DNA from: Desulfocapsa sp.
GTDB lineage: Bacteria; Desulfobacterota; Desulfobulbia; Desulfobulbales; Desulfocapsaceae
Length of the DNA stretch: 64,000 nt
Direction of reading: 5' to 3'
Assembly (NCBI GenBank): GCA_016765495.1
Contig: JAESPV010000027.1
Location: 1-64,000 of the forward strand
Positions 5,423-24,606 of the stretch are shown here, piece after piece. Both the position numbers and the translations under genes were made by a program. The notes below the pieces were generated by a model, which did not search any database, was not told the origin of the DNA, and saw only the letters and a program-made list of their open reading frames with translations. Within the stretch, counting starts at the first letter, position 1, and every line of letters starts with the position of its first letter.

Positions 5423-7162
5423 ATGGTAAGTGAATATACGATCAGAATAGGGGGGGCTGCAGGCCAAGGAATGCAGTTCATTGGGAGTCTTCTTGCCAAA
5501 TGCTTCAGTGAAGCAGGTTTTTATACCTTCACACACCAAGACTATATGTCCCGAATCAAGGGGGGGCATAATTTTTACCAAATCCGTATCGCCAACCATC
5601 CGGTTGCTTCGTCACGAAATACAATTGATATATTACTTGCCTTAAACCAGGAAACCATTGAAATTCATGCTCAGGATCTCAATGAGGATGGATTGATTCT
5701 GTACGACAGAACAGCCGTCGAGCAACATTATTCCCAACCTGAATTTATTCAAATACCTTGTTCAGATATCATCACAGGCCTTGATCTCAATCAAGTGATG
5801 ACAAGCTCTGTCGCAGCTGGTGCCATTCTTGGATCTGTAGGGCTTGAAACTCTTTTGGACTTCACCAGAATTATCCCTGGCTTTATTCCCGTTGCAAGCG
5901 AAGGAGTCGTTGCATCGCAAACGAGTGCAGCACAGGCAGGGCTCGATTTTGTGTTGCAAAACGTTGACTCAAAAAAACGTTTTATGCCCATAGAATTGAC
6001 TGAACAGAACAAAAAACGCCTCTTAATGAATGGAAACCAGGCCATTGGGATGGGAGCGTTGCTAAGCGGATGTAAATTCTACTCGGCATACCCAATGACC
6101 CCAGCCACCTCCATTATGCTCTATCTGATTTCCAAGGCAGAAAAACATGGTGTAATAGTGGAACAGGCTGAAGATGAGATATCTGCCATAAACATGGCCT
6201 TGGGAGCATCCTACGCCGGAGTTCGGGCCATGACAGGAACCTCAGGAGGCGGATTTGCTTTGATGACTGAAGGAATTTCTCTTGCCGGAATAACAGAAAC
6301 GCCGGTTGTAATTGCTGAGGTGCAGCGACCAGGACCTGCAACAGGTCTGCCAACCAGGACGGAACAAAGCGATCTCTTCTTTGTTATTTTTGGGGGGCAT
6401 GGAGAATTTCCCAAGGTTGTTTTTACGCCTGGTACCCCGGAACAGGCTCTTCTTCTTACCAACAGAGCCTTTCATTTGGCTGAGAAATATCAAATCCCTG
6501 TGATTATTCAGTCGGACCAGTATCTGGCAGACTCTCAATGGGTCGTTGATGATATAGATAATCAATTACTCAATTATGAAGATTTTCGTCTCCGTGGGGA
6601 AGAACTGATAAATACACAGTCTTACCAACGTTATGCATACTCCGAAGATGGTATTTCTCCTTTGGCAATTCCTGGTGCCTCAAAACATCTGGTGGTGTTT
6701 GACAGTGACGAACATGACCAGGATGGGCATATAATTGAAGACGCAAAGACTCGTAACATGATGGTGGAAAAAAGATATCACAAAAAACTTCCTCTCATAC
6801 AACAAGAGATTGCTCCTCCCTCCCTCTATGGCTCCGAGAAGCCAGATATTATTTTAACCGGGTATGGATCGACCTTTGGTGTTTTGAAAGAGGCGGTTGA
6901 GCGTCTTGCCGATCAGCACTCAATTGCGATGCTTCATTTCAGTGAGGTCTACCCTTTCCCACTGACTAATGATTTTGACTACGTGGGAATGCTTAATAAG
7001 GCAAAGCTTACTCTTTGTGTCGAAAATAATGCCTCAGGTCAATTTGCCCAGCTCATGAGAATGGAAACCGGCTTTGAGTTTAATGCCAGAATTAATAAAT
7101 TTGATGGCCGTCCTTTTGGACTCGACTACCTGTTGGGAGAAATCAATGATTACCTTCGATGA
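5423..7162 (+). CDS. korA: 2-oxoacid:ferredoxin oxidoreductase, fused gamma-alpha subunit
   Basis: The protein has 579 residues, the length of gamma-alpha fusions. Residues 1-190 are the gamma domain with GGAAGQGMQ near the N-terminus. From about residue 200 the alpha (pyrimidine-binding) domain begins, with the YPMTPAT motif (YPITPST type). The C-terminal 150 residues form the core domain. With the beta subunit it oxidatively decarboxylates a 2-oxoacid (2-oxoglutarate or a branched-chain acid) with CoA and reduces ferredoxin. GGGGGA lies upstream of the start, and the 3' end overlaps korB by 17 bases. No delta/ferredoxin subunit is adjacent. Substrate choice cannot be read from the sequence. 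Confidence 0.88.
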   Translation: MVSEYTIRIGGAAGQGMQFIGSLLAKCFSEAGFYTFTHQDYMSRIKGGHNFYQIRIANHPVASSRNTIDILLALNQETIEIHAQDLNEDGLILYDRTAVEQHYSQPEFIQIPCSDIITGLDLNQVMTSSVAAGAILGSVGLETLLDFTRIIPGFIPVASEGVVASQTSAAQAGLDFVLQNVDSKKRFMPIELTEQNKKRLLMNGNQAIGMGALLSGCKFYSAYPMTPATSIMLYLISKAEKHGVIVEQAEDEISAINMALGASYAGVRAMTGTSGGGFALMTEGISLAGITETPVVIAEVQRPGPATGLPTRTEQSDLFFVIFGGHGEFPKVVFTPGTPEQALLLTNRAFHLAEKYQIPVIIQSDQYLADSQWVVDDIDNQLLNYEDFRLRGEELINTQSYQRYAYSEDGISPLAIPGASKHLVVFDSDEHDQDGHIIEDAKTRNMMVEKRYHKKLPLIQQEIAPPSLYGSEKPDIILTGYGSTFGVLKEAVERLADQHSIAMLHFSEVYPFPLTNDFDYVGMLNKAKLTLCVENNASGQFAQLMRMETGFEFNARINKFDGRPFGLDYLLGEINDYLR

Positions 7163-8003
7163 TTATAAAGGTCAAAAACCATCCTGGTGTCCTGGCTGTG
7201 GTAATTTTGCAATTTTGAACACCTTAAAAAGAGCCTTGGTTGAACTTGATATTGGTCCTGAGCAGCTGACGTTGGTCTCTGGTATTGGCCAGGGGGCAAA
7301 GATGCCTCATTATATGAAATGTAACACCTTTAATGGGCTTCATGGCAGGACTCTTCCGGTTGCCACCGGTCTTAAACTTGCTAATCATGAGATGCTGGTA
7401 ATAGCAATTGCCGGGGATGGTGACTGTTATGGAGAAGGTGGTAATCATCTGCTTCATGCCATCAGGAGAAATGTTAATATAAAACTCTTTGTCCACAATA
7501 ACCAGATCTATGGTTTGACTAAAGGACAGGCCTCACCGACCACCGCAGAAGGTACAATTACAAAATCCCAACCTTACGGCAGTTTTTCTTCACAATTGAA
7601 TCCTCTTGCAATGGCTATTTCGCTTGATTGTAGTTTTGTAGCAAGGGGTTTTGCCGGTGCCTCTGGACTGCCATTTCTTAAAGAAATCATGAAACAGGCA
7701 ATCAACCATAAAGGTTTTGCCATGGTGGACATACTGCAGAATTGCGTCTCTTTTAACAAAGTGAATACCCTTCACTGGTATAAGGAAAGAGTCTACAAAC
7801 TGGAAAGTGACTACGACCCTTATGACCGTGTAGAGGCTTTCAGAAAGTCTCTGGAGTGGGGAGATAAAATTCCAACAGGTATATTTTACAAGAAGGACAA
7901 AAGATCTCTTGAGGAACGTGTTCCCTGCATAAAGGATGTTCCTCTTGTTCATCAGCCTTTCTCACTTCCGGAAGCAAAAAAAGATATTTTTGAACAGTTT
8001 TAG
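7146..8003 (+). CDS. korB: 2-oxoacid:ferredoxin oxidoreductase, beta subunit
   Basis: The start is ATG 7146 (GGGAGA upstream), giving 285 residues; a longer frame from 7074 lies inside korA and lacks support. It has the CPGCG motif (C15, C18), the thiamine-pyrophosphate motif GDGD at 90-93 with the NNQ-IYG segment at 118-123, and C200 as a likely further cluster ligand. The frequent GIGC cysteine is Gln49 here (SGIGQGAKMP), as in the Kor-type subgroup. It binds thiamine diphosphate and one [4Fe-4S] cluster and passes electrons to ferredoxin in the cytoplasm. It is translationally coupled to korA by overlap. Confidence 0.88.
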   Translation: MITFDDYKGQKPSWCPGCGNFAILNTLKRALVELDIGPEQLTLVSGIGQGAKMPHYMKCNTFNGLHGRTLPVATGLKLANHEMLVIAIAGDGDCYGEGGNHLLHAIRRNVNIKLFVHNNQIYGLTKGQASPTTAEGTITKSQPYGSFSSQLNPLAMAISLDCSFVARGFAGASGLPFLKEIMKQAINHKGFAMVDILQNCVSFNKVNTLHWYKERVYKLESDYDPYDRVEAFRKSLEWGDKIPTGIFYKKDKRSLEERVPCIKDVPLVHQPFSLPEAKKDIFEQF

Positions 8004-11254: not shown

Positions 11255-12682
11255 TCAGGTATTTTGTTTGCTTTGAAGAGGGATTGTGATCGTGCAGATA
11301 TTATTTTCATCATTATTTCTACGAACATCAATACTTCCATCAAAAGTACCAAGAAAAGCCTTGCAGAAATTAATGTTATGCCATGAACCTTGCGAGTTAT
11401 CATCAGTTCGGGTTGAACCAGGAGGTGCCCCGTTGTCCTGGATGTTTATTGAAACCTTATGCTGACTCAGGGCGGTTTCATCAAGTGTAATCGAAATTTT
11501 TTTCAATCCCGCTCCACCGGTTGTGTACCTCCTATTGAGAGCAATTCTGCAATTTTGCAGTGCTGATAAGATAACAAGTTGCAGGTCACCGACGTGATTG
11601 TTCAGCATAACCGCAGGATCGCTTAAAACGATATTCAGCTCTATACCTTCATTCTTAAAAGTACCACGAACCAGTGACTTTACCTGTTCAAAGAGCTCGT
11701 CAACGGTTAGAGCCTTTGCTTCACCTGTTTTACTTCCACTGGTGAATGTTGTCATATTTGTAAGAAGATGTGACATTTTTCTTTCTTCTTTGAAAAGTTT
11801 TTGCAAAAGCTGCTTTGAGTCGCTGTCAAGTTGTAGATCCGTACTTATGTCAAGTATCGCCTGGGTGTAGTTAATCGCTCCATTTGAAAGATTGGTAAGC
11901 TCATGGCTAAGCCCTCCAAGGAGGTGTCCAATAGAACTATACCGATAGAGGCGTGCAAGTTCATCCGTATCTGAAACGTTTGGTACGTGAGCTTTTTCAT
12001 TTTCTCCCATTGCCAGATTTTCTATTGTTTTGTGGAGTGAAAATAAAGTTATGTTGTCACTTTCGTCAGGGAACAGTGATTTACAATAGTGAATGATAGG
12101 AGACGTAATGTATTTGTTTATCACGAGAAGCATGATACTAACCACTGCAATGACGATGGCGAGAAGCCCAACGAGTGCCTGCTGAAGCCCGAGGAGCTGC
12201 TTTTGTGTGTATCTGCTGATCAGCATATGGAAGCTGTTTAATTTTGACTGAATGTTCCGAAGCTGTGTTGATAGTGAGGAAAGCTCTCCTCCAGAAGGAG
12301 TGTCTGTATTATTTTGAATACTTCTTAATGATACTGTAATGTTCACAAGATCAAGCTGACTGATAAATGAAAGTTTGAACTCTTCAGGAACAAGGATATC
12401 GTCAAGAATTGATTGGAGTTGAATATCCAGTCCCTGAATTTCCTTTATCAGTTCTGTACTGTTAAGAGTTTTTTTGTTTAAAAGAGTTGCGTTAATATGC
12501 TCTTTGATTCCTGTGAATTGAAACAGTAATTGCTGGCTTGAATCAACGAGTTTTTCACAATGTCGATAGAGAAAATACTGTTTGCATGCAAAAAAAAACA
12601 CAACAATAAGCATTAAGGTGGTACTGATAGTAAATAGAGAGAAAATACGTTTTAATGAAATTTGGGAAAAAATGTTCTTCAT
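11255..12682 (-). CDS. Membrane histidine kinase with degenerate ATPase domain
   Basis: The protein has 475 residues. TM1 (about 14-33) and TM2 (about 170-189) enclose a ~135-residue helical periplasmic domain without cysteines or recognised sensor motifs. The phospho-acceptor segment is GGLSHELTNLSNGA with His260. The ATPase region keeps an N-box-like stretch (SALQNCRIALNRR) and QDNGAPP, but the G2 loop is not recognisable, so ATP binding may be weak. AGGAGAG precedes the ATG. It lies 89 bases after the NrfD-type gene on the same strand, separated by a hairpin, so it may be read through from the cytochrome module. No cognate regulator is adjacent. Confidence 0.75.
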   Translation of the reverse strand: MKNIFSQISLKRIFSLFTISTTLMLIVVFFFACKQYFLYRHCEKLVDSSQQLLFQFTGIKEHINATLLNKKTLNSTELIKEIQGLDIQLQSILDDILVPEEFKLSFISQLDLVNITVSLRSIQNNTDTPSGGELSSLSTQLRNIQSKLNSFHMLISRYTQKQLLGLQQALVGLLAIVIAVVSIMLLVINKYITSPIIHYCKSLFPDESDNITLFSLHKTIENLAMGENEKAHVPNVSDTDELARLYRYSSIGHLLGGLSHELTNLSNGAINYTQAILDISTDLQLDSDSKQLLQKLFKEERKMSHLLTNMTTFTSGSKTGEAKALTVDELFEQVKSLVRGTFKNEGIELNIVLSDPAVMLNNHVGDLQLVILSALQNCRIALNRRYTTGGAGLKKISITLDETALSQHKVSINIQDNGAPPGSTRTDDNSQGSWHNINFCKAFLGTFDGSIDVRRNNDENNICTITIPLQSKQNT

Positions 12683-12771: not shown

Positions 12772-14025
12772 TTATGTTTCACCCTTCCACCCATAAACGA
12801 TGGGCAGACGATAAACGATAAAGCGATAAGTCAGGAAGTAGAGGGCGTAAATGGTTACTGTAATCCATACTTCCTTCCAGTGAGGAATCTCTTGATACAT
12901 CTGCCAGTTGTAACAAATAAGAGCGGTATTGAGTCGATTCCAGACGATTCCAATTACTGCGATAAAAGCGCCAACTCTAATCAGTGTTACCCATTTGTTT
13001 CTGATACCTATTGCAAAGATAAACATTGGGAGAACTACTGCTACACCAAGTTCAAGAATGTAGTAGCTTCCCCACCCAGTGAGAAGGTATGACCATTCCT
13101 GGTCGTGAGCTATGGCGACGATTTTGATGATTAGATAGGTTATCATGGCATACGATGCGCCTTTGGCAAGACCGATGGTGATGTAATCCAGATTGTTTTT
13201 AAACTCATCATCGCAGCGCCATCCCATATAATTCTTGATGAGTGTTGAGGCTATGATGACCATGGAAAGTCCTGCAAAAATTGACGAACAGAAGAAATGG
13301 ATCCATTGGTAATTTGTTGATATCCACAGTGGATGAATTTTTGTCGGGGCATAAGTGAACAAGGCACCCAAAGCTCCCTGGTGGAGTGTGGAGAGAATGA
13401 TTCCGGCTATGGTAAGACCCAGCACAAATTTTCTGATTATACGTTTTCCTTTCAGCCATCCGCACCATTCAAAAAATGCAGGCAGGACTTCCGCTATCTG
13501 AACCGAGAGATAGATGGCAACATGCCAGGCCACAAGAAAGAGTACGGCAGCGGGTCCTATTGAAACAAACATTGGATAGGGCAGACGCCAGGGCATTCCA
13601 AGGTCCATTTCCAGAAAAAGTACAGCAAAAAAGTAACCAAGAAGACCATTCAACAGAGCCAGCCGTTCAATGGCATGAAAATCCTTTCTGCCAAAAAGCT
13701 CTACAGTGGTACCAAGCATAAATCCTGATGCTGAGAGTGGAACCATTGCAAAAAGGCCAAATCCAAGAAAGAGCCCCCATGGGTAATCATTTGATGAATG
13801 TGTAACCCAACCCAGACCGTACATGTACCGTCCAAGAATAAGAGGAACGCCAACTGCAAAAATAAACATCATCAACCAGTTAACAGGATTTCTAAAGTAC
13901 TGTTTTTTGTAATCGGAAGGGGAGAGTCCTAACCAAAGCTTTTCTTTTATTGTCCATTCTGTGCCATCTTCTTTGAGGTGGTGGACGATTGGAATCTCAG
14001 GTCTTTCTTTTGAAAAGAGTTTCAT
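12772..14025 (-). CDS. NrfD/HybB-type quinone-interacting membrane subunit (module 1)
   Basis: The protein has 417 residues and about ten hydrophobic segments, in the NrfD/PsrC/HybB superfamily that exchanges electrons with quinone from an FeS partner. The N-terminal ~45 residues are cytoplasmic, and the order of segments is most like HybB of hydrogenase-2. It overlaps the stop of the HybA-like gene by 4 bases (ATGA) and has a strong GGAGGAG site, so the two are coupled. It is the third gene of a cytochrome, FeS, membrane-subunit operon read from 15578. No catalytic (molybdenum or NiFe) subunit is nearby. Confidence 0.85.
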   Translation of the reverse strand: MKLFSKERPEIPIVHHLKEDGTEWTIKEKLWLGLSPSDYKKQYFRNPVNWLMMFIFAVGVPLILGRYMYGLGWVTHSSNDYPWGLFLGFGLFAMVPLSASGFMLGTTVELFGRKDFHAIERLALLNGLLGYFFAVLFLEMDLGMPWRLPYPMFVSIGPAAVLFLVAWHVAIYLSVQIAEVLPAFFEWCGWLKGKRIIRKFVLGLTIAGIILSTLHQGALGALFTYAPTKIHPLWISTNYQWIHFFCSSIFAGLSMVIIASTLIKNYMGWRCDDEFKNNLDYITIGLAKGASYAMITYLIIKIVAIAHDQEWSYLLTGWGSYYILELGVAVVLPMFIFAIGIRNKWVTLIRVGAFIAVIGIVWNRLNTALICYNWQMYQEIPHWKEVWITVTIYALYFLTYRFIVYRLPIVYGWKGET

Positions 14026-15005
14026 ACCTGCTCCTCCTTCTCATCGTTTTCTTTTTGTTTAGCGAGTTCTTTCTCTTTCTCTTTCTCTTTTTCCATTTCT
14101 ATAACCTTCTCTTTTCGTGTTGCAAGTAAATGGAATCCTACAAAGAGTCCAGGCCATATGGTGAGTACCATGGGAACGATTGCAAGGAAATCTTTTACCA
14201 TATTAATGATAGGTTCTTTTGGTACATTTGTGTCAAAACCAACTTTGTCAAAAGACACACTCGAAAGATACATCCAGGCGGTACCACCAACTTCATGTTC
14301 ACCATAAATATGATCAACATATTTTCCAGGGGTGTTACGAATACGTTGCCGTCCAATGCTGATACAATCAGTACGCTTTGCAAATGTTAAAGCTTCCTGG
14401 GGACATGCGTCAACACAAGCAGGTGCCTGTCCCTGTTTCAGACGAGTATCATAACAGAAGATACATTTCATTATTGTAGGACTGAAAGCACTGGAGTATT
14501 TAAACGTTGGGACATAGAAAGGACAGGCTATCATACAGGTCCGACAACCAACACATACTTTTGAGTTATATATAACTGCGCCTTCAGGAGTTTTAGTATA
14601 CGCATTTACAAAACAGGACGTCAGGCAGGCTGGCTCGTTACAATGATTGCACTGGAACTTTTTGAAAAGTGGATGGGGAAGTTCCGGTACATCGTAGCGA
14701 TTTACTATGGTATAGGTAGTTTCATCAGTACGCCTCTTTTGACCATGGTGAATCTCATCAAAGACAGAAAAGTCGGTAAAGGGTTTAGCAGGCTCCGGAA
14801 GTTCCTGTTCTTTGTTACACGCAGCCTCACAGGATCGACAGCCAACACAGCGGGTAAGGTCTACTAAAACACCCATGCCATCAGGATATCCTTCAAAATT
14901 TCCCGATGCTTGAGTGTTTTTATTTTTAAGTACCGCAACGGCTGCTGTGGATGCGAGTCCGCCTTTTAGAAAACGTCTACGACTCAACTTTTCATTTATA
15001 TTCAT
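14022..15005 (-). CDS. Tat-exported HybA-like iron-sulfur subunit (module 1)
   Basis: The start chosen is ATG 15005 (AGAGGAAA upstream), giving 327 residues; a start at 15032 lacks a ribosome site. The N-terminus has a Tat motif, SRRRFLKGG. Four cysteine groups follow (CVGCRSCEAAC, CNHCNEPACLTSC, CVGCRTCMIACP and CIFC...CVDACP), which would hold four [4Fe-4S] clusters. A single membrane segment near 275-300 anchors the periplasmic domain, as in HybA. The last 30 residues are a Lys-Glu tail encoded by a GAGAAA-type hexamer repeat (about 14045-14100). It should pass electrons between the pentaheme cytochrome and the NrfD/HybB subunit. Confidence 0.85.
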   Translation of the reverse strand: MNINEKLSRRRFLKGGLASTAAVAVLKNKNTQASGNFEGYPDGMGVLVDLTRCVGCRSCEAACNKEQELPEPAKPFTDFSVFDEIHHGQKRRTDETTYTIVNRYDVPELPHPLFKKFQCNHCNEPACLTSCFVNAYTKTPEGAVIYNSKVCVGCRTCMIACPFYVPTFKYSSAFSPTIMKCIFCYDTRLKQGQAPACVDACPQEALTFAKRTDCISIGRQRIRNTPGKYVDHIYGEHEVGGTAWMYLSSVSFDKVGFDTNVPKEPIINMVKDFLAIVPMVLTIWPGLFVGFHLLATRKEKVIEMEKEKEKEKELAKQKENDEKEEQV

Positions 15006-15047
15006 TTGGTTTCCTCTCTTAACACTGGTCATTGAATATCCTGATCA

Positions 15048-15578
15048 TTAATGGCCAGATGATGATGTTCCTTTGGCAGGAGCAAAGGCACCTGTATTAA
15101 ACATTTTTTCTCCAGCCTCTGTCATAGTATGACATTCAACACATCCTACAGGGCCCGATGTGATATCATGACAACCAATACAGTTGAGGTGATACGCTCC
15201 CTTGAGGCCTGGTTTGTCAATGTGAAACAGTTTTGGATCTTCAAGTGTTTTAATATATTCCTCATTAAAACGATCAGCCACATGACATTCGCTACAGCTG
15301 ACTACGTCATTTTCATCGTGACTGTGATGACAACGTGCACAATTAGGATCTGCTATAATCTCTCCGGTGGTATGGTGATGACATTCCTGACAACTGGCGT
15401 ACTCCACATGCATTTCATGATTAAATTCAACGGGGCCATAAAGATTACTCATAACATCAATGGTAACTGTTTCAGGAGCATCATCAGCAGTCATAGACCA
15501 CGTTGTGACCGGTAAAAACATTGTGGTACCAACAGTTAGCGTAAGCGCTGTTAGCATAATCTTTTTTCGTATTCGCAT
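15048..15578 (-). CDS. Periplasmic pentaheme class III-type cytochrome c (module 1)
   Basis: The protein has 176 residues. A cleavable signal peptide (about 1-28) precedes five CxxCH heme sites at 63-67, 80-84, 95-99, 133-137 and 146-150. Several extra histidines (FNHEMH, CHHH, CHHSH) could give bis-His ligation like cytochrome c3. It is likely the periplasmic electron carrier of a three-gene module with the HybA- and HybB-like subunits. The start has a strong AGGAGGAAG site. The 290-base upstream region holds palindromes (15667-15685, 15724-15735) but no promoter I can name. Confidence 0.85.
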   Translation of the reverse strand: MRIRKKIMLTALTLTVGTTMFLPVTTWSMTADDAPETVTIDVMSNLYGPVEFNHEMHVEYASCQECHHHTTGEIIADPNCARCHHSHDENDVVSCSECHVADRFNEEYIKTLEDPKLFHIDKPGLKGAYHLNCIGCHDITSGPVGCVECHTMTEAGEKMFNTGAFAPAKGTSSSGH

Positions 15579-15666
15579 TACTCTTCCTCCTTTTTTAATA
15601 AATCAAAACCTCAGTTGTAACGACTCACCGGGTAAACAAAATAGTTTCAAGAAACGCTGATGTTGT

Positions 15667-15685
15667 ATCACCCTTATGGAGTGAT
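15667..15685. promoter_or_regulatory. Inverted repeat upstream of cytochrome module 1
   Basis: ATCAC (15667-15671) pairs with GTGAT (15681-15685) around 9 bases, about 90 bases upstream of the pentaheme cytochrome start. The spacing is compatible with either a dimeric operator or a small hairpin. No regulator can be named. Confidence 0.3.
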
Positions 15686-15723
15686 GGAAATTTTTTCAGG
15701 CCGATCGGTACAAAAACTTACAG

Positions 15724-15759
15724 CCCCTTAAGGGGGTACTGAAAACAGCACTGACTTAC
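15724..15759. repeat. Dispersed intergenic repeat, copy 1
   Basis: This 36-base segment begins with the palindrome CCCCTTAAGGGG and matches 28 of 36 positions, without gaps, to 36509-36544 in another intergenic region. Shared blocks are CCCC, ACTGAAA, CTG and CTTAC. Both copies are followed within 15 bases by CACC. It may be a small repeat element or a conserved regulatory RNA part. It lies between ftsH and the module 1 operon. Confidence 0.4.
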
Positions 15760-15868
15760 CGTTAAACACCGGTGTCTAGTCATGTGTAATTCCATTAGAT
15801 CGTGAAAATATCCGGGGCCCAGTGAGTGGTCACCCTCAGTTTAATCTTGTTTGTATGAAAAAATGTGT

Positions 15869-17686
15869 TTATCCCTCCTTACGTGTTTTCATCAAATCTT
15901 TTTCAATATTTTTTTCGTTTACATAACAATGGTGAACGATATCGAATTCTTCACTATCCACTGTTTCATTGACTAGAAGTGCTTCCGCAAGTTTATGCAG
16001 AAATTTATTGTTTGCAATTAGAAGTTCTTTGGTTTCATCGTGGCACTGTTCTATGATTCCTTTGATTTCATTGTCAATACGTTCGGCTGTTTTTTCGCTA
16101 TACGGTCTTATTGTACTTCCACCTCCAAGAAACCCACTCTGATCCTGCATATACGCAATCGGGCCAATGGTAGTACTCATGCCAAATTCACAAACAAGAC
16201 GACTGGCAATTTCAGTGGCTCCTATAAGGTCATTGCTGGCACCGGTTGTTTGGTGATTGAAAATTATCTCTTCGGCAGCACGTCCACCCAGAAGTGTTTT
16301 TATCCTGTTGATGAGATACTCACGCGAGTAAGTGTACCTGTCATCGAGGGGTAATTGTTGCGTAAGTCCAAGAGCCTGACCGCGTGGGATGATGGATATT
16401 TTGTGGACAGGGTCTGTGTCAGGCAGAAGTCTAGCGGTTATAGCATGTCCTGCTTCGTGATATGCTGTTACACGCCTGTCTTTTTCATTAACAACAACAT
16501 TATTCCGCTCAAGTCCTAAGCTTATTTTGTCTTTTGCGGCATCGAAGTCTGAACTTTCCACGGCAGATTTGTTTTTACGAGCTGCCATAAGGGCAGCCTC
16601 ATTAACAAGATTCGCAATTTCAGCACCACTGAATCCCGGTATTGATCTGGCGATATTAGAGAGGTTTGTGCCATGTGAAAGTACAATCTTTTTTGCATGA
16701 ACTTCCAGGATTTTCCGGCGTCCTTTTACATCCGGCAGAGAAATGGTTACCTGGCGGTCAAAGCGCCCGGGTCTCAGGAGCGCCGGATCAAGGATGTCAG
16801 GTCGATTTGTTGCAGCAATTATGATGACTGTCTGATCTGAATCAAAGCCATCCATTTCTACCAGCAAGGCATTCAACGTTTGTTCGCGCTCGTCACTGGA
16901 ACCACTGGCATTGCCACCACTTCTTTTTCCACCTATTGCATCAATTTCATCGATGAATACGATGCATGGAGCATTCTTTTTAGCCTCGGTAAAAAGTTCA
17001 CGTACTCGTGATGCCCCAACTCCCACAAACATTTCAACAAAGTCAGAGCCGCCTATTGAAAAAAAAGGAACAGATGCTTCTCCTGCAATGGCTTTAGCAA
17101 GCAAGGTTTTACCGGTTCCGGGGGGGCCCTGGAGAAGAACACCTTTAGGGATATATCCACCAAGACTTGAGAGTTTATCGGGATGTTTTAATGACTCGAC
17201 TATTTCAACGAGTTCGATTCTTGCCTCACTAATTCCTGCGACATCATCAAAGGTGAGGCCGGTGTTCTTTTTGGGCTGAAAGGTTTTTCCTTTATCTTTC
17301 CCAAAACCGGGGGTTCCACCCGTCTGCATTCTAGAAAAGATTAAGTACCCACCAAAAATCAAAAATATTGGAACCATTGAGCTAATAAATCTGTCAAAAT
17401 TGCCGCTGTCTTTTTCGGCGGTAATTTTAATGGACCGGCTGTCCAGTATAGGCATCAGCGAAGGAACATGCGGAACATAGGAACTGAATTCGTGTTTAAG
17501 AATATCTTCTCCTGTAACCAGTCCGCCCTTAAGATGTACCTGTTTTATTTTGCCATCTTTTAAAAGTTGGACAAATTTTGTGTATGAAATTTCATTAGGG
17601 GTTGTTTCATGCAGATAGACGTTGTATCCAACTACACCAAGAAGTGTAAGGAGGAGCACTAATAATCCTGTCTGTATCTGAGACAT
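15869..17686 (-). CDS. ftsH: ATP-dependent zinc metalloprotease FtsH
   Basis: The protein has 605 residues. Two membrane segments (about 5-24 and 103-118) flank a small periplasmic domain. The AAA+ domain has Walker A GPPGTGKT (187-194), IDEIDA at 245-250 and the arginine-rich LLRPGRFDR motif. The protease domain has the zinc motif HEAGH at 410-414. FtsH extracts and degrades misfolded or unassembled membrane proteins and short-lived regulators. It starts four bases after the stop of the transposase-like gene, with its AAGGAG inside that gene's end, so the two are one operon. Control from the sigma-54 promoter at 18643-18658 would be unusual for ftsH. Confidence 0.95.
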
Positions 17687-17689
17687 GTT

Positions 17690-18595
17690 TTACTCCTTTG
17701 TTGGTTGTGAAGTTAAATTTTTATAGGAAAGAGACTTCTTGCTGAGGGCACCTGATAGGAGAAGATTAAATATAGCCTCTCTGTCCGGTAGCATTGCAGC
17801 ATTGCTATGGAAACAAAATTCGTCGAGATAAAGCTGTAAATGTTTAGCAGCAACACCACCACGATGAATTGTATTAATCCAGAGTTTAAAGCTTTCTGTT
17901 ATTTCTCTGGTTTTGTAAATGGTGGAACTGGCGACACTTATGAAGCTATTCCTGTTAATGTTTTGATAGCTGACTTCATCAGGAACAATGAGTGACGATC
18001 CCGGTTCAACTTTCCTGTTTAAAAAACTGTTTACTGTTTTGCGGTTTACAGATTCAACAGAGGCCATTTTTATACGGCCTGTGATACCTGCCGGAAGGAT
18101 GATTTCAGCTGCAGCAAGAATTGGTGTTTTGGCAAGGTTTTCACCTCCGAAGGATATTGTGTTCGATGATATTTCAACAGTTTTGGAGCATTTTTTTTTG
18201 TCTGCCAGTGCCATGGCCATTCGTAACTTCTGCAACCATGCCCAGGCTGTTTGATAACTTGAGAGGTGTAATAATCTCTGCAGGTCTTTAGCACTCTTTC
18301 CGCCAGGCGATGACGTAAGCCACCAGATACAGATGAGCCATTGGGAAAGTGGCTTTTTAGTACCGTGCATGATTGTATTGGTCGAAATGGATGTGGGGTG
18401 TCCACAGTGGCTGCAAATCATTGTTTTAGCAGGGCGCAGTTCTTCGTTTTGCCATGCGCAGTATGGACAGACAAAGCCTTGGGGCCATCGTTTCTGAAAC
18501 AGGAATTCCAGACTGATGTTTTCCTCCAGGAAAAGGTTTTTAAACTCATCAAGTGTTTTGGGGAAAGAGTGTCCTGTATTGGAAAATACCTGCAT
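17690..18595 (-). CDS. IS1595/ISXO2-like transposase-derived protein, probably domesticated
   Basis: The protein has 301 residues, full length for the family. An N-terminal zinc ribbon (C43, C46, C61, C64) precedes an ISXO2-type DDE-fold domain that ends in the family signature IHRGGVAAKHLQLYLDEF. The first catalytic acid, normally in a VEVDETYIGG-like motif, is missing: here VEISSNTISFGG (140-151). Asp206 (VPDEVSY) remains. The C-terminus runs 40 residues past the signature. AGGAA precedes the ATG. No terminal inverted repeats or target duplication are visible, and ftsH follows after three bases. A chromosomal regulatory or DNA-binding role is inferred. Confidence 0.7.
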   Translation of the reverse strand: MQVFSNTGHSFPKTLDEFKNLFLEENISLEFLFQKRWPQGFVCPYCAWQNEELRPAKTMICSHCGHPTSISTNTIMHGTKKPLSQWLICIWWLTSSPGGKSAKDLQRLLHLSSYQTAWAWLQKLRMAMALADKKKCSKTVEISSNTISFGGENLAKTPILAAAEIILPAGITGRIKMASVESVNRKTVNSFLNRKVEPGSSLIVPDEVSYQNINRNSFISVASSTIYKTREITESFKLWINTIHRGGVAAKHLQLYLDEFCFHSNAAMLPDREAIFNLLLSGALSKKSLSYKNLTSQPTKE

Positions 18596-18642
18596 CTATG
18601 TTCCTTTTGTGTGTTTACTTATCCACTTTAATTTGACTTTAT

Positions 18643-18658
18643 GCACATATGGTGCCAA
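18643..18658 (-). promoter_or_regulatory. Sigma-54 (-24/-12) promoter of the transposase-like/ftsH operon
   Basis: On the minus strand the bases read TTGGCACCATATGTGC, matching the consensus TGGCAC-N5-TTGC with one difference and with correct GG-N10-GC spacing. It ends about 48 bases before the ATG at 18595, leaving a short 5' leader. It implies that the operon needs an AAA+ activator such as the neighbouring regulator (18916-20742). Confidence 0.65.
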
Positions 18659-18857
18659 TGGGTATATGTGAATAATAATATTAGTAACTGCATGTTTGTA
18701 GAAAGTAATATGGGAGTGTTGTTATATTTTCACCAGTGTGGCGGTGTGAGGTGGTGAAGAATAAAACTAAGGAATTAAGAGTGTTTTACGTAAATATAGC
18801 TATAGAAACAGTAGATTGAATTGTTTCAAGACGAAATGTGGAGCACGGTGCTTGGTG

Positions 18858-18905
18858 CCACACAAATGTGGTGTGTCCCACACTTGTGAGCGCACACAAG
18901 TGTGG
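18858..18905. promoter_or_regulatory. Upstream activator-type inverted repeats (CCACA/TGTGG)
   Basis: Two inverted repeats lie 200-260 bases upstream of the sigma-54 promoter. The first is CCACA-N4-TGTGG (18858-18871). The second is an 11-bp perfect pair, CCACACTTGTG (18878-18888) with CACAAGTGTGG (18895-18905). The distance fits enhancer sites of NtrC-type activators. A related palindrome is found at 24047-24065 before the kinase operon. Confidence 0.5.
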
Positions 18906-18915
18906 CGGGAAGGGA

Positions 18916-20742
18916 TTAGAGATCGAAGGTGGAAAGATCTATCTTAAGTTCTTTTAACTTACGGTATAAAGTTGAGCGATCTATGGCAAGAAGCCTCGCT
19001 GCCTTCGCTTTATTACCACCACTTTTTTGTAGAGCAGCGATGATTCGACTTTCAAGGCTATTATTATGAAAGGTATGGTTGAGTGAAGAAGGTTGCGGAG
19101 GTTGAGGAATGTGGGGGGGGAGGCCCTGTTGAAATCCTGATGTCAGCGGAATGGGTGGGTTAGGTTGCTGATGTAAAATTTCGTCAGGAAGCTGTTCCTT
19201 TGAAATGGTTGAACTATTGCAGAGTACACAGGAGCGTTCAATAATATGCTGAAGTTCCCGGATATTCCCCGGCCATTGAAAGTCTGAAAGTAAACTCATG
19301 GCCTGGTCAGAAATGCCTGAAATAGGCTTTCTCATTTGCTTAGCATACTGCTGGATGAACTTGTTTGTGAGCAGGGGAATGTCCCCTGTACGTTCTCTCA
19401 AGGGTGGAAGGATAATGTCAATGACCCGGAGTCTGAAATAGAGATCTTCCCTGAAGATTCCTTTTTGCACCTGTTCACGTAAATTCACATTGGTAGCTGC
19501 AATAATTCGGACATCTACCTGGATTGCAGTGTCGTGTCCCACTGGATAAAAGGTTTTTTCCTGGAGAAAACGCAGCAGCCTTAGCTGCATCATGGGTGAG
19601 ATGTCACCAATCTCATCCAGAAAAAGTGTTCCGCCATCAGCTTGAAGAATTCGTCCCATGCGATCCCGATCAGCGCCGGTGAAAGAACCTTTTTTATGGC
19701 CAAAAAGTTCACTTTCAAGGAGACTTTCTGGGATTGCGGTGCAGTCAACTTTAATAAGTGGGCGGTTTTTCCGGTGGCTTTCAAGATGAAGTGCTTCTGT
19801 GGCAAGTTCCTTTCCGGTTCCACTTTCGCCTGTTATCAGTACTGCAGAATCAACTTTTCCGACATTCTCAATCATTGTATAAACGGTTTGCATGACAGGG
19901 CTAGCTCCGATTATTCGATGAAATGAAGTTCGCTGTTTCGAATGCCCCTGTTCAACGATGGCTGTCATGTCACGAATAACTATGACCACACCATGAAACC
20001 CACCTCGACCATCTTCTAAAGGTGAGATACAGATGGAGATGACTTTATGATTCATAGACGCTGTAGTAAATTCGATACGGTGTTCTTTAATTTCAACTCC
20101 TGATCGTAAAACTTTTTCAGTATCTTCTTTGAAAAAACATGTGGCATTGTTGGCACAAACTACTGCCAGGTTAGCACCTTCTTTGACTTCCGGAATGATC
20201 CCCCCTAAAAAGCAAATTGCGGATTGATTCATTTTTACCACATTCATTTCCCTGTCAATTGTTATGATGCTGTCGGAAACACTAGCAAAGAGGGTGTCAA
20301 GGTATGAGCGATACTGTTCTTTTTCTTCTTCAGCTTTTTGTCTTTCAAGTTTCAGGCGTTGCTGCTGAAGGGCAAGGCGAACCGTTTTCAAGAGCTGTTC
20401 TTTTTCAACTGGTTTTTGAATATAATCAAAGGCACCAAAACGCAGAGCTTCGGAAGCTGTGTCAACGGTTGGGTACCCGGTAACCATAATTACAGGGCAT
20501 GAAATATTAAGTTCTCTTATGCGCTTGAGAAGATCTATCCCCGTACTTCCACCAAGTACGATATCACTGATAATGAGATCAAATGGCTGTGAAGTGAGTT
20601 TTCCCAATGCCTCTTCAAAATTAGAAGCTAAGACGATGGGTCCATACCCTTCACGTTTGAGAAAAATTTTAAAAGTGTGTCGTAAAGACTCTTCATCGTC
20701 TACAACGAGGATTGGGACATTAACAGTGGTTTGATTTTCCAT
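18916..20742 (-). CDS. Sigma-54-dependent response regulator (REC-PAS-AAA+-Fis)
   Basis: The protein has 608 residues. The receiver (8-125) keeps the acidic pair DD15-16 and the acceptor Asp60, with the conserved Lys in FDYIQKP. A PAS domain (about 145-270) follows a coiled-coil linker. The AAA+ domain has GESGTGKE and GSFTGA (a Ser variant of GAFTGA). A proline-rich linker leads to the Fis-type HTH, ending near residue 605. It should be phosphorylated by the adjacent kinase and drive sigma-54 promoters; the ftsH operon promoter is the nearest candidate. It is the last gene of the kinase, PAS protein, regulator operon, with GGAG before the ATG. Confidence 0.92.
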   Translation of the reverse strand: MENQTTVNVPILVVDDEESLRHTFKIFLKREGYGPIVLASNFEEALGKLTSQPFDLIISDIVLGGSTGIDLLKRIRELNISCPVIMVTGYPTVDTASEALRFGAFDYIQKPVEKEQLLKTVRLALQQQRLKLERQKAEEEKEQYRSYLDTLFASVSDSIITIDREMNVVKMNQSAICFLGGIIPEVKEGANLAVVCANNATCFFKEDTEKVLRSGVEIKEHRIEFTTASMNHKVISICISPLEDGRGGFHGVVIVIRDMTAIVEQGHSKQRTSFHRIIGASPVMQTVYTMIENVGKVDSAVLITGESGTGKELATEALHLESHRKNRPLIKVDCTAIPESLLESELFGHKKGSFTGADRDRMGRILQADGGTLFLDEIGDISPMMQLRLLRFLQEKTFYPVGHDTAIQVDVRIIAATNVNLREQVQKGIFREDLYFRLRVIDIILPPLRERTGDIPLLTNKFIQQYAKQMRKPISGISDQAMSLLSDFQWPGNIRELQHIIERSCVLCNSSTISKEQLPDEILHQQPNPPIPLTSGFQQGLPPHIPQPPQPSSLNHTFHNNSLESRIIAALQKSGGNKAKAARLLAIDRSTLYRKLKELKIDLSTFDL

Positions 20743-20774: not shown

Positions 20775-21902
20775 TTATTTGGAAAATGTGGTGAGGTCGC
20801 GAAATACGATAACGGTGCCAGTAAGCTGATTTCCTTCAATAATTGGTGTTGAATTATATTCAACGGAAAAACTGCTGCCATCTTTAGCCCAAAAAACATC
20901 ATCTGATTTAAAATGAACTTGACCATCTCTGCAGGACATGAAAATAGGACAATCTTCTTCGCTGTATTTCTCTCCATCGGGATGGCTATGATGAACAAGT
21001 TGATGGTAGGATTTGCCAACTAATTCCTCCATTTCCCATCCAAGCATGATGGAGGCTGCCTTATTTATAAAAGTGACCTTCCCCTCAATATCAAGACCCA
21101 AAATACCCTCGCCGGCTGCATTAACAATAAGGTCGAGATGTCTTTCAAGTTTTTTCGCCTTACTGATATCTTTAAAAACTACAACTGCACCGGTGATTGT
21201 TTTTTGATTTTCAAGAAGAGGAGTGGATGTGTACTCAACGGAAAAACTTTTTCCTGACTTAGTCCAGAAAACATCATCGGTCTCATGATGAATCTGTCCA
21301 TCTTTATAGGCCATATAAATGGGACATTCTTCAACAGGATAAGGAATGCCATTCTTACGGGTATGATGAACAAGATCATGGTGAGATATGCCAATGAGTT
21401 CCTCTTCGGTCCATCCCAGGAGTTCAGTGGCTTTGTTGTTTAAAAAGGTTACGCATCCCTGTGTGTCTATTCCGAAAATACCATCTCCAGCGGAATTAAG
21501 GATGGTGTGAAGACGTTTTCTCAGTTTAAGACCTTCAGCTTCTGCCTGAATACGTTCTGCGATTTCACGATTCAACGATCCATTGATTACAGCCATTTCA
21601 AAGGTCTTTTTTTCAACCGCATCATCAAGGGTGGATTGAACAGTAGTTAATGACTCTGTACAAGTTTCGAGATTTTGTTGTAAAAGATCCTTTTCTTTCT
21701 GGAAATTGATAGAGTCGCTGGTGGAAATAAACACAGTAATTCCGTAAAGAACAAGGAGAACCACAAAAGATAGTATACAGTAAGGAGTGAAAGTACTGGC
21801 TGAGCCACTGTCACTGATTTTACTATCAAAAAAAAATAACAATACAGCAGCAAGGAGGAATAGTGCGGAGAGTAGTAAGATCGATTTGGTATTTCTGTTC
21901 AT
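20775..21902 (-). CDS. Membrane-anchored double-PAS protein without output domain
   Basis: The start is ATG 21902 (AAGGAG upstream), giving 375 residues; the frame stays open 61 codons upstream into the kinase gene but has no support there. Two membrane segments at about 7-25 and 38-57 are followed by a coiled coil and two PAS domains (about 125-245 and 250-372) that closely resemble each other, so they arose by duplication. The chain stops right after the second PAS, with no kinase, GGDEF or methyl-accepting part. Both PAS copies hold an H-x-LVHH segment and a CPI motif that could bind a metal or cofactor. It likely passes a signal to the neighbouring kinase. Confidence 0.8.
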   Translation of the reverse strand: MNRNTKSILLLSALFLLAAVLLFFFDSKISDSGSASTFTPYCILSFVVLLVLYGITVFISTSDSINFQKEKDLLQQNLETCTESLTTVQSTLDDAVEKKTFEMAVINGSLNREIAERIQAEAEGLKLRKRLHTILNSAGDGIFGIDTQGCVTFLNNKATELLGWTEEELIGISHHDLVHHTRKNGIPYPVEECPIYMAYKDGQIHHETDDVFWTKSGKSFSVEYTSTPLLENQKTITGAVVVFKDISKAKKLERHLDLIVNAAGEGILGLDIEGKVTFINKAASIMLGWEMEELVGKSYHQLVHHSHPDGEKYSEEDCPIFMSCRDGQVHFKSDDVFWAKDGSSFSVEYNSTPIIEGNQLTGTVIVFRDLTTFSK

Positions 21903-21912
21903 TGAGTACTCC

Positions 21913-23946
21913 TTAGATGTCAGGTATCGGAAGGTCAACAAGGAGGCTTGTTGAAACACCAAATTCACTGTGTATTCTGAGTGATCCCTTGTTGTCCTGC
22001 ATGAGGCCATGGCTGATGCTGAGTCCGAGGCCCGTTCCTTTTCCTTCGGGTTTGGTTGAGTAAAAGGGGTCAAATACCCTGTCAATCAAATCCTGTTCTA
22101 TTCCAACGCCGTGGTCGGTGAGAGTGACACGGACAAATTTTTTCTTTGAATGAGTGATTATACTCCCATTAATAATTAGTTTTTTGTTCGGGCTCTGTCT
22201 GGGGTAACGATCATTCAGTGCATATCTGGCATTGGAAAGAATATTAAGTAACACCTGCTGTATTTGATGGCTGTCACAAAATACCATTGGCAGATCCTGC
22301 GGCAAATCAATTTCCAGCAGGATCATATCTTTTTTAAGTCGGTGATTTATAAGTTCCAGACAATTGTTAATAATAGTTTCTATGGGAATCTCTTCTGGTA
22401 ATTCCTCATGTCTTCTGGAAAAATCAAGGAGATTGGAAACGATAGAAGCAATACGTTTTCCTTCTTTTTGTATACGTTTCAGCACATTGATGTTATCAGG
22501 ATCTTCGGGACTATCCATGATTATTTGTGCATAATTAATGATTCCATTGATAGGGTTGTTGATTTCATGGGCCACACCTGCTGCCAATTCACCAACAGCG
22601 GCAAGTTGTGCAGAGCGTAATGCTTCGGCTTTTCTCAGTTCTTCGTCCGCCTTCCTCAGCTCTTCTTCTGTGAGATCTCTTGCAACAAGAAGCGAAGCAT
22701 CCTCGCTACCAGCAGAAAAATGGAGCGGGCTAACTGTGAGAAGGTAGTTGCCATGCAATCCGCGGAGTTGTGTTTCGATTATTCGACTCTGTTGTGTTGC
22801 TATTAGTTCTTCAAGAGGGCAGGGGATTCCCTTGGCTCGTCCAAGGTGTAAAGTTTCGCAAATTTTATGTCCAATGATTTCTGATCGTGTTTTTCGTGCG
22901 GCCGTGAATGTGGCAGGATTTGCATCAAGAATCACTGAGTCAGTGGAAACAATGAGTGCGGGATCCTGTATTGCAGAAAAAATATTTTCCCATTGAACTA
23001 TTGCCTGTTTGAGATCATGATCTATTTTGAGTTTTCCTGTTATATCTTTTCCCAAAAGAACTAAGCCGAGTTTTCCCTGCTTGAGGTTTTGTCTAAAGGA
23101 TGCATGCCAGTGGATAAACCGATTTTGTTGATCCTTGGTGACTAAGCAGGATTCAAAATTTATATGTTCTTTTTCACCTTTAAAGACATTGCTGAGGAGC
23201 TGCTGGTTTGCTTTTCGATGGTCTTCCGCCATAAGAACATCAACCCAATATTTATCGACAACATCTTTTTCTTTGTATCCGGTTACTTCTTCTGCTTTTT
23301 GATTAAATGAGAGAATTTTCCCACATGGCGAAATGGAGATAAGCAATGCCTGCATTGTGTCAACAATTTCTTTGTTAAAGTCCCGTTCAACCTGGATATT
23401 TCTCGTTAACTCTTGTGAATAGAGGGCAAGCGATATATCTGCAATCACTGTTTGTAAAAAAGAGACCTCTTCTTTTGTGAAACCATTAACTTTTTTAGAG
23501 TGGATACTGATGACGCCAAATTCTCTGGATTTATATTTGAGGGGCCATGCAGAACATGACCTGAATCCGGTTTTGAGTGAAATTTCACGCAGTCCTTCAA
23601 GATCAACAGAGGCACGAATATCCTGATGAATTACGAAATTACTTGAACGAAGTGCTTTTGCAGCAGGATTGGCGCCATTCATTTCTGCAATAACCTGTTC
23701 CACAAGGTGCAGACAATCGCAATCGGGTATATTAGCTGAGGTAAATGCTACCAAGGGTGTTATTGTTTTGCCCCCCTCATCGCGCCTACCAGCCCAGATA
23801 AGGCAATATTCCTGGTTGTGCATGATAATTTCACAGCACTTCTCAAGGAGTTTGTCGGCTCCAGCGATCTCGCCGGAGTCAGAAGCAGAGAGTTCCCTGA
23901 TGGCCAGAAGTATTTCATTTCTCCTAAATGGTTCCATTGTATTCAT
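21913..23946 (-). CDS. Soluble hybrid-sensor histidine kinase (GAF-PAS-PAS-HisKA)
   Basis: The protein has 677 residues and no membrane segments. The GAF domain (about 20-185) is cysteine-rich (C37-C38, C76, C78, C131). Two PAS domains lie at 195-305 and 315-425. A short coiled coil precedes HisKA with GVAHEINNPING (His460). The ATPase domain has NILSNARYALND, DHGVGI and GTGLGLS. It is a complete NtrB-type kinase and should phosphorylate the sigma-54 regulator two genes downstream; the PAS membrane protein starts 10 bases after its stop. There is no clear ribosome site before Met1; Met4 is an alternative. A TGTGGCA/TGCCACA palindrome lies about 100 bases upstream. Confidence 0.9.
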   Translation of the reverse strand: MNTMEPFRRNEILLAIRELSASDSGEIAGADKLLEKCCEIIMHNQEYCLIWAGRRDEGGKTITPLVAFTSANIPDCDCLHLVEQVIAEMNGANPAAKALRSSNFVIHQDIRASVDLEGLREISLKTGFRSCSAWPLKYKSREFGVISIHSKKVNGFTKEEVSFLQTVIADISLALYSQELTRNIQVERDFNKEIVDTMQALLISISPCGKILSFNQKAEEVTGYKEKDVVDKYWVDVLMAEDHRKANQQLLSNVFKGEKEHINFESCLVTKDQQNRFIHWHASFRQNLKQGKLGLVLLGKDITGKLKIDHDLKQAIVQWENIFSAIQDPALIVSTDSVILDANPATFTAARKTRSEIIGHKICETLHLGRAKGIPCPLEELIATQQSRIIETQLRGLHGNYLLTVSPLHFSAGSEDASLLVARDLTEEELRKADEELRKAEALRSAQLAAVGELAAGVAHEINNPINGIINYAQIIMDSPEDPDNINVLKRIQKEGKRIASIVSNLLDFSRRHEELPEEIPIETIINNCLELINHRLKKDMILLEIDLPQDLPMVFCDSHQIQQVLLNILSNARYALNDRYPRQSPNKKLIINGSIITHSKKKFVRVTLTDHGVGIEQDLIDRVFDPFYSTKPEGKGTGLGLSISHGLMQDNKGSLRIHSEFGVSTSLLVDLPIPDI

Positions 23947-24192: not shown

Positions 24193-24606
24193 CTACAATT
24201 TGTTTTTTGTTGTTGGTATCGGTTTGGCAATATTAGGTGCAATGCCAATTCGTTGCATTTTACGGTAGAGGGTTGATCTATCTAGGTTGAGCATGCGTGC
24301 AGCTTTGGTTTTATTCCCCCTGGCTCTTTTTAAAATGTCGATGATTTCGTCTCTTTCACTAATGTAAGGAGGGAGTGGCGCTGTAGCGTTTACCCAGGAC
24401 ATTTCTCTTGGAGACGTTGACGCAGGGTGAGTTGGGTTTTGAATCTGAAAATGTTCAGGAAAAATAGTTGAGCCTTCGCATAACAAAGAAGCTCTTTCCA
24501 TGACATGACGAAGTTCACGCACGTTACCGGGCCATGAATATCTGGATAAGGAATCCATTGCCTGATCTGATATTCTATGAATATTATATCCTTGCAAAGA
24601 AGTCAC
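24193..24606 (-). pseudogene. C-terminal remnant of a sigma-54 regulator
   Basis: The 137 residues cover only the end of an NtrC-type activator: the AAA+ lid segment with SWPGNVRELRHVMERA (about 24-40) and a Fis-type HTH (about 85-125). The receiver, Walker motifs and GAFTGA are absent. It aligns with residues ~475-608 of the complete regulator at 18916-20742. The bases upstream (24607-24747) show no coding. It is best read as a decayed copy, though a DNA-binding-only repressor is possible since the frame is intact. Confidence 0.7.

Follow-up and report, generated by a model that had tools for sequence, protein, structure and literature searches.

The 64,000-nt stretch of Desulfocapsa sp. DNA analysed here (the window; contig JAESPV010000027.1) raises the question of what a transposase homologue does when it is lodged between a sigma-54 promoter and an ftsH gene. 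The gene, termed TNP, is an intact open reading frame at 17690..18595 on the minus strand and encodes a 301-aa homologue of the IS1595-type transposases. The original prediction of a full-length ISXO2-like protein with an intact zinc ribbon agrees with the domain scores, since both domains lie above their curated Pfam cutoffs (Zn_ribbon_IS1595, 29.7 bits with a cutoff of 25.4; DDE_Tnp_IS1595, 36.1 with a cutoff of 27) and the NCBIfam IS1595 transposase model is matched at 86.4 (cutoff 75). The zinc ribbon spans about residues 40–68, followed by HTH-like helices at about 102–131 and an RNase H-like core at about 137–280. In an alignment of 29 sequences, all four zinc-ribbon cysteines are invariant, and the invariant residues lie mostly in the DNA-binding part. 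The structure was predicted confidently from an alignment of 25 sequences (mean pLDDT 86.7, pTM 0.85). The top Foldseek match of this model is the ISCth4 transposase (E 5.9e-06, TM only 0.35), and the core superposes on the retroviral integrase core of avian sarcoma virus with a VIA-align Z of 14.0 and an rmsd of 2.2 over 122 residues. By sequence, no solved relative of TNP was found, the only matches being two ribosomal zinc ribbons (E 0.54 and 0.92).

Alignment with 15 IS transposases showed that the positions of the conserved D, D, H and later K of these relatives are occupied in the window TNP by Ser143, Pro205, Arg230 and Lys237, respectively. The first catalytic acid had been claimed to be lost, and it is indeed absent after alignment with the IS1595 relatives, with Ser143 in its place; the second Asp and the His are gone as well. 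In the 15 relatives the first Asp and the His are present in 15/15 and the second Asp in 14/15. Among 57 TNP orthologues, the corresponding counts are 13 for the first Asp, none for the second and one for the His, with the Lys kept in four, and a complete D, D, H triad occurs in none. Furthermore, the loop bearing an Arg that is invariant in the 15 IS relatives is deleted in 57/57. Judged from these residues, TNP is dead as a transposase.

TNP is present as a single copy in its own genome. A profile search of 257 genomes of the class gave matches at 1e-30 in 76 and scores of at least 296 bits in 54, and three further operon-type genes score lower (G130, contig end; G150, divergence; G026, poor frame), so that 57 orthologous genes were collected. 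A family search at E 0.001 found some match in 62 of 93 genomes, 42 of which hold an operon-type TNP according to tree and synteny, the remainder being IS-type matches or fragments. In a draw of 297 genomes of the phylum, 22 match TNP at 1e-30 and only the window's own protein exceeds 260 bits. Because these searches of class and phylum genomes found it there only, the TNP orthologue is confined, as far as searched, to families f1 (42 genes) and f6 (15 genes) of one order. When compared with 22 IS proteins, the 57 orthologues group in a single clade with an SH-aLRT support of 100, in a tree from a quick search with long branches flagged. The main groups of this tree match those of the NrfD+FeS tree, in which the TNP-minus labels include rows with ended contigs (G066, G114, G135). 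Mobile relatives share at most about 36% identity with TNP, and its close relatives are single operon genes rather than multi-copy mobile elements.

The selection analysis proposed with the original prediction gave dN/dS values of 0.056–0.279 for TNP (NG86, 10 orthologue pairs with finite dS), next to 0.048–0.221 for ftsH in the same pairs; dS is saturated in three other TNP pairs, including both pairs with the window gene. The DNA-binding part has the lower dN/dS in nine of the ten pairs. Mean identity within the 57 TNP proteins is 53% for residues 25–135 versus 34% for residues 136–290, compared with 62% versus 56% for the same two regions in the 15 mobile relatives. Combined, the single copy, the one orthologous clade, the synteny, the low dN/dS, the lost triad and a promoter conserved across the loci (below) make the domestication of TNP, as originally proposed, well supported. 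That TNP is an ordinary recent IS insertion or a decaying IS remnant beside ftsH, as its membership of the IS1595 sequence family might imply, is contradicted by its single copy, its synteny over two families and its low dN/dS; the window also yielded no paired ends, and the probability we leave to this explanation is virtually nil.

In full, the genomic setting of TNP runs from a sensor kinase through a PAS protein and the activator to TNP, and on to the ftsH, cytochrome, FeS and NrfD genes. All of these genes lie on the minus strand of the window: a sensor histidine kinase with GAF, PAS, HisKA and HATPase domains (21913..23946), a PAS-domain sensor protein (20775..21905), a sigma-54 activator of receiver-PAS-AAA-HTH_8 architecture just upstream of TNP (18916..20742), and an ftsH paralogue encoding AAA and M41 peptidase domains (15869..17686), which is one of three ftsH matches in the genome. 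The spacing of three bases given in the original prediction is exact, as TNP with its stop codon ends at 17690 and the ATG of ftsH lies at 17686. At 24193–24606, a 137-aa open frame shows similarity only to the C-terminal portion of a sigma-54 activator, the rest of which may sit in another frame or be broken.

Downstream of ftsH, also on the minus strand, follow a small multihaem cytochrome c of class III-like type (15048..15578), an HmcB-like iron-sulfur protein (14022..15032) and an HmcC-like NrfD membrane subunit (12772..14025), and after these redox genes a histidine-kinase-like protein (11255..12682), whose position is kept in many relatives. The cytochrome has five CXXCH motifs, yet matches class III (tetrahaem) models. 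The iron-sulfur and NrfD subunits are closest to HmcB and HmcC of the Hmc-type complexes of sulfate reducers, and on these sequence matches the module is classed as Hmc-like. Their scores remain below the equivalog level (396 bits with a cutoff of 420; 364 bits with a cutoff of 550). In contrast to Hmc-type complexes, the window operon has the small five-CXXCH cytochrome instead of the hexadecahaem HmcA, and it includes ftsH. The dsrOhPh-tetrahaem locus described in cable bacteria (PMC13047784) was considered as a counterpart of the redox module, but identity with it was not adopted because the window iron-sulfur protein scores 396 bits against HmcB and 88 against DsrO.

Among the 57 TNP loci, ftsH follows directly downstream in 54, namely in the window and 53 others (with ftsH matched in two pieces in L200); a search for orthologues beside ftsH in other genomes had been suggested with the original prediction. 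The three loci where ftsH was not seen are L209, whose contig stops 53 nt past the TNP match, L096 in G035, where TNP adjoins the cytochrome gene, and L211 in G150. This last locus holds a lone TNP (6657–7556) behind a kinase and an activator, and the ftsH and redox genes are missing from its vicinity; it has a very long branch, lacks a TIR-like site and is possibly in a decaying state. An NtrC-type sigma-54 activator lies just upstream of TNP in 45/57 loci, window included. Six loci lack it in more than 1 kb of upstream sequence (L087, L088, L101, L102, L108, L200), and six others have too little upstream sequence to judge.

The operon also occurs without TNP. An NrfD orthologue was found in 131/257 genomes of the class at E 1e-90, and 20 NrfD regions were taken from genomes without an operon-type TNP match, several of them cut by contig ends. 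Ten of these 20 show the order activator–ftsH–cytochrome–FeS–NrfD without TNP (L218, L220, L221, L223, L224, L226, L227, L228, L232, L235). In five of the ten, the TNP slot is filled by a predicted membrane protein of 104–159 aa (L218 in f3; L223 in f6, genus g41; L224 in f7; L226 in f9; L227 in f13), and these proteins from the gap between activator and ftsH have common stretches such as QYMVA.G and DFYTHIKG. G068 (L135), of family f1, has activator and ftsH and lacks TNP, and G123 (L233) and G159 (L234) have the activator and redox genes, with neither TNP nor an intact ftsH. In L234, ftsH appears by eye to be broken into fragments, and the matches to the redox genes are almost full-length. 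The TNP-less activator–ftsH–redox operons fit an older operon which the transposase gene entered.

These loci also bear on whether TNP works with FtsH, or in the assembly or quality control of the redox complex, as an adaptor, substrate or regulator of proteolysis, in which case the leader site described below would serve another function. The direct adjacency of ftsH in 54/57 loci and the fact that this ftsH is one of three paralogues speak for such a role. However, TNP is kept at the G035 locus without ftsH (L096 being the only locus inspected there), ftsH is kept without TNP in G068, G136, G156 and G157, the invariant residues of the 29-sequence alignment lie mostly in the DNA-binding part, and the tracking of TNP by the TIR-like site is left unexplained. 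We therefore regard this role as quite unlikely. The original prediction had offered a regulator or an assembly partner for FtsH; of the two, a regulator is the likelier, given that a TIR-like site is conserved where transcription is predicted to start, and a specific FtsH partnership is weakly supported.

The sigma-54 promoter was analysed across the TNP loci. The promoter TGGCACCATATGTGCA at 18642..18657 on the minus strand reaches 14 of 15 in a weighted score based on the general sigma-54 consensus, a score attained by 0.1–0.4% of shuffled upstream regions. A -24/-12 element scoring at least 12 is present in all of 54 TNP upstream regions, at least 13 in 47 and 14 in 26, compared with 9%, 1.5% and 0.1% of shuffled regions at thresholds of 12, 13 and 14, respectively; the 54 regions represent 53 distinct ones, as L043 and L210 are the same locus, and the promoter of L095 is doubtful. 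The element lies 51–174 nt, mostly 55–80 nt, from the TNP start codon. Further upstream, palindromes of the form CCACA..TGTGG (18858..18905, minus strand) are likely sites of the sigma-54 activator, and they recur upstream in many, not all, TNP loci. The near-perfect promoter and upstream sites of the original prediction are thus both found, and sigma-54 control of the TNP operon is well supported. Upstream of TNP in L093, a perfect palindrome with 24-bp arms and a 2-bp loop begins 98 nt before the promoter.

The ends of mobile relatives provided the reference for what TNP might recognise. According to PMC8101967, IS1595-family elements generate target-site duplications of 8 bp. The inverted repeats flanking the open reading frames of mobile relatives have the common consensus GGTATCCACTTGAC, and both ends of the Sphaerochaeta element L045 agree in 24/24 bases. 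Ends were searched in 30 IS relatives against a shuffled control, 29 of which were testable (L125 is cut by a contig end). Paired ends above the control were found in 15/29, all close to the same core, and 14 of these 15, with TATCCACTT or a one-base variant, were used to build a matrix of the terminal inverted repeat (TIR). No ends above the control were found in L054, L062, L111–L120 and L126, and L124 has an unrelated repeat; the multi-copy elements L111–L116, from the same bacterial family, showed no ends within 300 nt. Six more IS relatives were added, of which L212, L214, L215, L216 and L122 have core variants at their ends and L213 has none. Across phyla (L044–L060 including L110, 15 loci; L122, L212, L214–L216), the TIR core is near GGTATCCACTT, with variants such as TATGCAGTT.

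Around the window TNP, no paired TIRs were found; positions 15300–18600 hold one match of like score (10.7 at 16738), which lies inside ftsH and is without the TATCC core. As regards a pair, the original statement that terminal repeats are missing is right; a single TIR-like site is nevertheless left at 18617..18629 on the minus strand. Compared with IS1595-family elements, TNP shares the zinc ribbon and DDE domain, and its operon site resembles the TIR core TATCCACTT of the nearer relatives. It differs in having no catalytic triad, no paired TIRs and only a single copy, fixed in one operon over two families.

The remaining site, AAAGTGGATAAGT, is 13 bp long, lies 12 nt after the -12 element and is proposed as an operator. 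With the GC doublet taken as -12 by convention, it is predicted to occupy +3 to +15. Read on the opposite strand it is ACTTATCCACTTT, which includes TATCCACTT, the TIR core of related IS1595 elements, and the site points the opposite way to the left TIR of mobile relatives. In the window's clade the distance between site and promoter is fixed, while the site stands anywhere between 10 and 133 nt away from the start codon. The TIR matrix was scored at the fixed offset from the promoter, where random 14-mers reach a score of 5 with a probability of 0.0007. In the clade of genera g1, g3 and g16 with family f6, a score of at least 5 was obtained in 32/33 rows (31/32 distinct loci) and of at least 9 in 29/33; the one exception, L074, has two mismatches to the 13-mer. 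In three held-out loci (L200, L204, L206; 3/3) the site is again found at this offset, the mismatches numbering 0, 1 and 2, respectively, and a fourth, L199, has no promoter sequence to score.

In contrast, a TIR-like site at this offset occurs in 0/12 operons without TNP, of which eight have clear promoters and four doubtful ones (L135, L226, L228, L235). Elsewhere in their upstream regions, the best TIR scores range from 0.7 to 9.2, the latter in L234. Four of the 12 (L220, L221, L232, L234) fall among TNP-bearing relatives of the same family in the tree. Fisher's test of 32/1 versus 0/12 gives 4.5e-10, a value that serves as a guide only, given the relatedness among the rows, one of which is a duplicate. 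Of the other TNP-bearing rows, 20 belong to family f1 and one is L211; in all 21 the TIR matrix fails at this offset. Ten carry a diverged site, CCTATC(C/T), one base nearer, and 11, including the deep genera g4, g12 and g18 and L211, have no recognisable site. Within the window the site ranks only eighth by TIR score alone, and the case for it therefore rests on conservation and fixed position.

The fixed distance between site and promoter could also mean that TNP binds the site and activates, or architecturally assists, the sigma-54 promoter. L071 and, less strongly, L073 have a second TIR-like copy ahead of the promoter, which would suit such a role. This second copy is not conserved, however, and a position of +3 to +15 suits roadblock repression, as is generally known; we hold activation to be very unlikely. 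Another reading takes the 13-mer as a DnaA box, or as an element of the RNA leader, instead of a TNP operator. The site lies at the predicted transcript start and, by eye, matches the DnaA box TTATCCACA in eight of nine positions in the window and in loci with the same 13-mer. On the other hand, its conserved end is CACTT and not CACA, the f6 variants CGTATCCACTTGG and CCTATCCACTTGG resemble the TIR more closely than they do the DnaA box, and the site is absent at this offset from all 12 operons without TNP, leaving this reading highly improbable. The exact 11-mer AGTGGATAAGT occurs only twice in the 3.8 Mb genome, which does not support a global regulon site. Because its only other exact copy in the genome lies inside alaS, the control loop of TNP would be local.

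We consider it probable, from the sequence comparisons above, that TNP is a DNA-binding autoregulator, most plausibly a repressor, acting through the TIR-like operator in the Hmc-like redox operon. The single clade, synteny, triad loss, low dN/dS and retained domains support a history in which an IS1595-type gene was captured, probably once, between a sigma-54 promoter and ftsH in a common ancestor of two Desulfobulbales families, thereby becoming the first gene of the ftsH–cytochrome–FeS–NrfD operon. Catalysis was lost, with retention of the zinc ribbon and HTH-like part, which in mobile relatives should recognise the terminal repeats. In the window's clade, a TIR-like sequence is retained at a constant position across the predicted sigma-54 start. 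TNP most likely binds this site, and its binding at +3 to +15 would repress or tune its own operon, a negative feedback that would supplement the activation coming from the two-component/sigma-54 activator. Co-encoded FtsH could, speculatively, degrade TNP and reset the loop. The fuller proposal, in which transposase and transposon-end-like operator were co-opted together as a repressor/operator pair and destruction of TNP by the co-transcribed FtsH makes a feedback switch reset by proteolysis on an Hmc-like electron-transfer complex, is tentative and, in our estimate, rather unlikely as a whole.

Transposase-derived regulators are well known in eukaryotes, and bacterial TldR proteins derive from TnpB. 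According to PMC8327481, human SETMAR/Metnase, derived from the Hsmar1 transposase, targets old transposon ends and represses bound loci. TNP is proposed to act likewise at a sequence resembling its own transposon end; SETMAR is a eukaryotic mariner fusion with many genomic sites, whereas TNP is bacterial, unfused and has apparently one dedicated site. TldR proteins, described in PMC13418256 as RNA-guided transcription factors of bacteria, are likewise transposon enzymes that now serve in the control of bacterial transcription, but they are guided by RNA, while TNP is of the DDE type and has a TIR-like site in DNA. Searches of the open-licence PMC literature, judged by listed titles and abstract openings, showed no case of a bacterial DDE transposase put to new use together with its transposon-end sequence as the operator.

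The loci compared here form a series of states: operons without TNP, operons with TNP and a TIR-close site, operons with TNP whose site is diverged or cannot be recognised, and relatives that lack gene and site alike. It offers a way to test how a mobile element may turn into a regulator. The retention of a TIR-like site where the operon messenger is predicted to start suggests that an enzyme of transposition became a switch for the operon, and it points to regulation not yet described of a redox complex whose NrfD subunit is present in about half of the genomes of the class (131/257).
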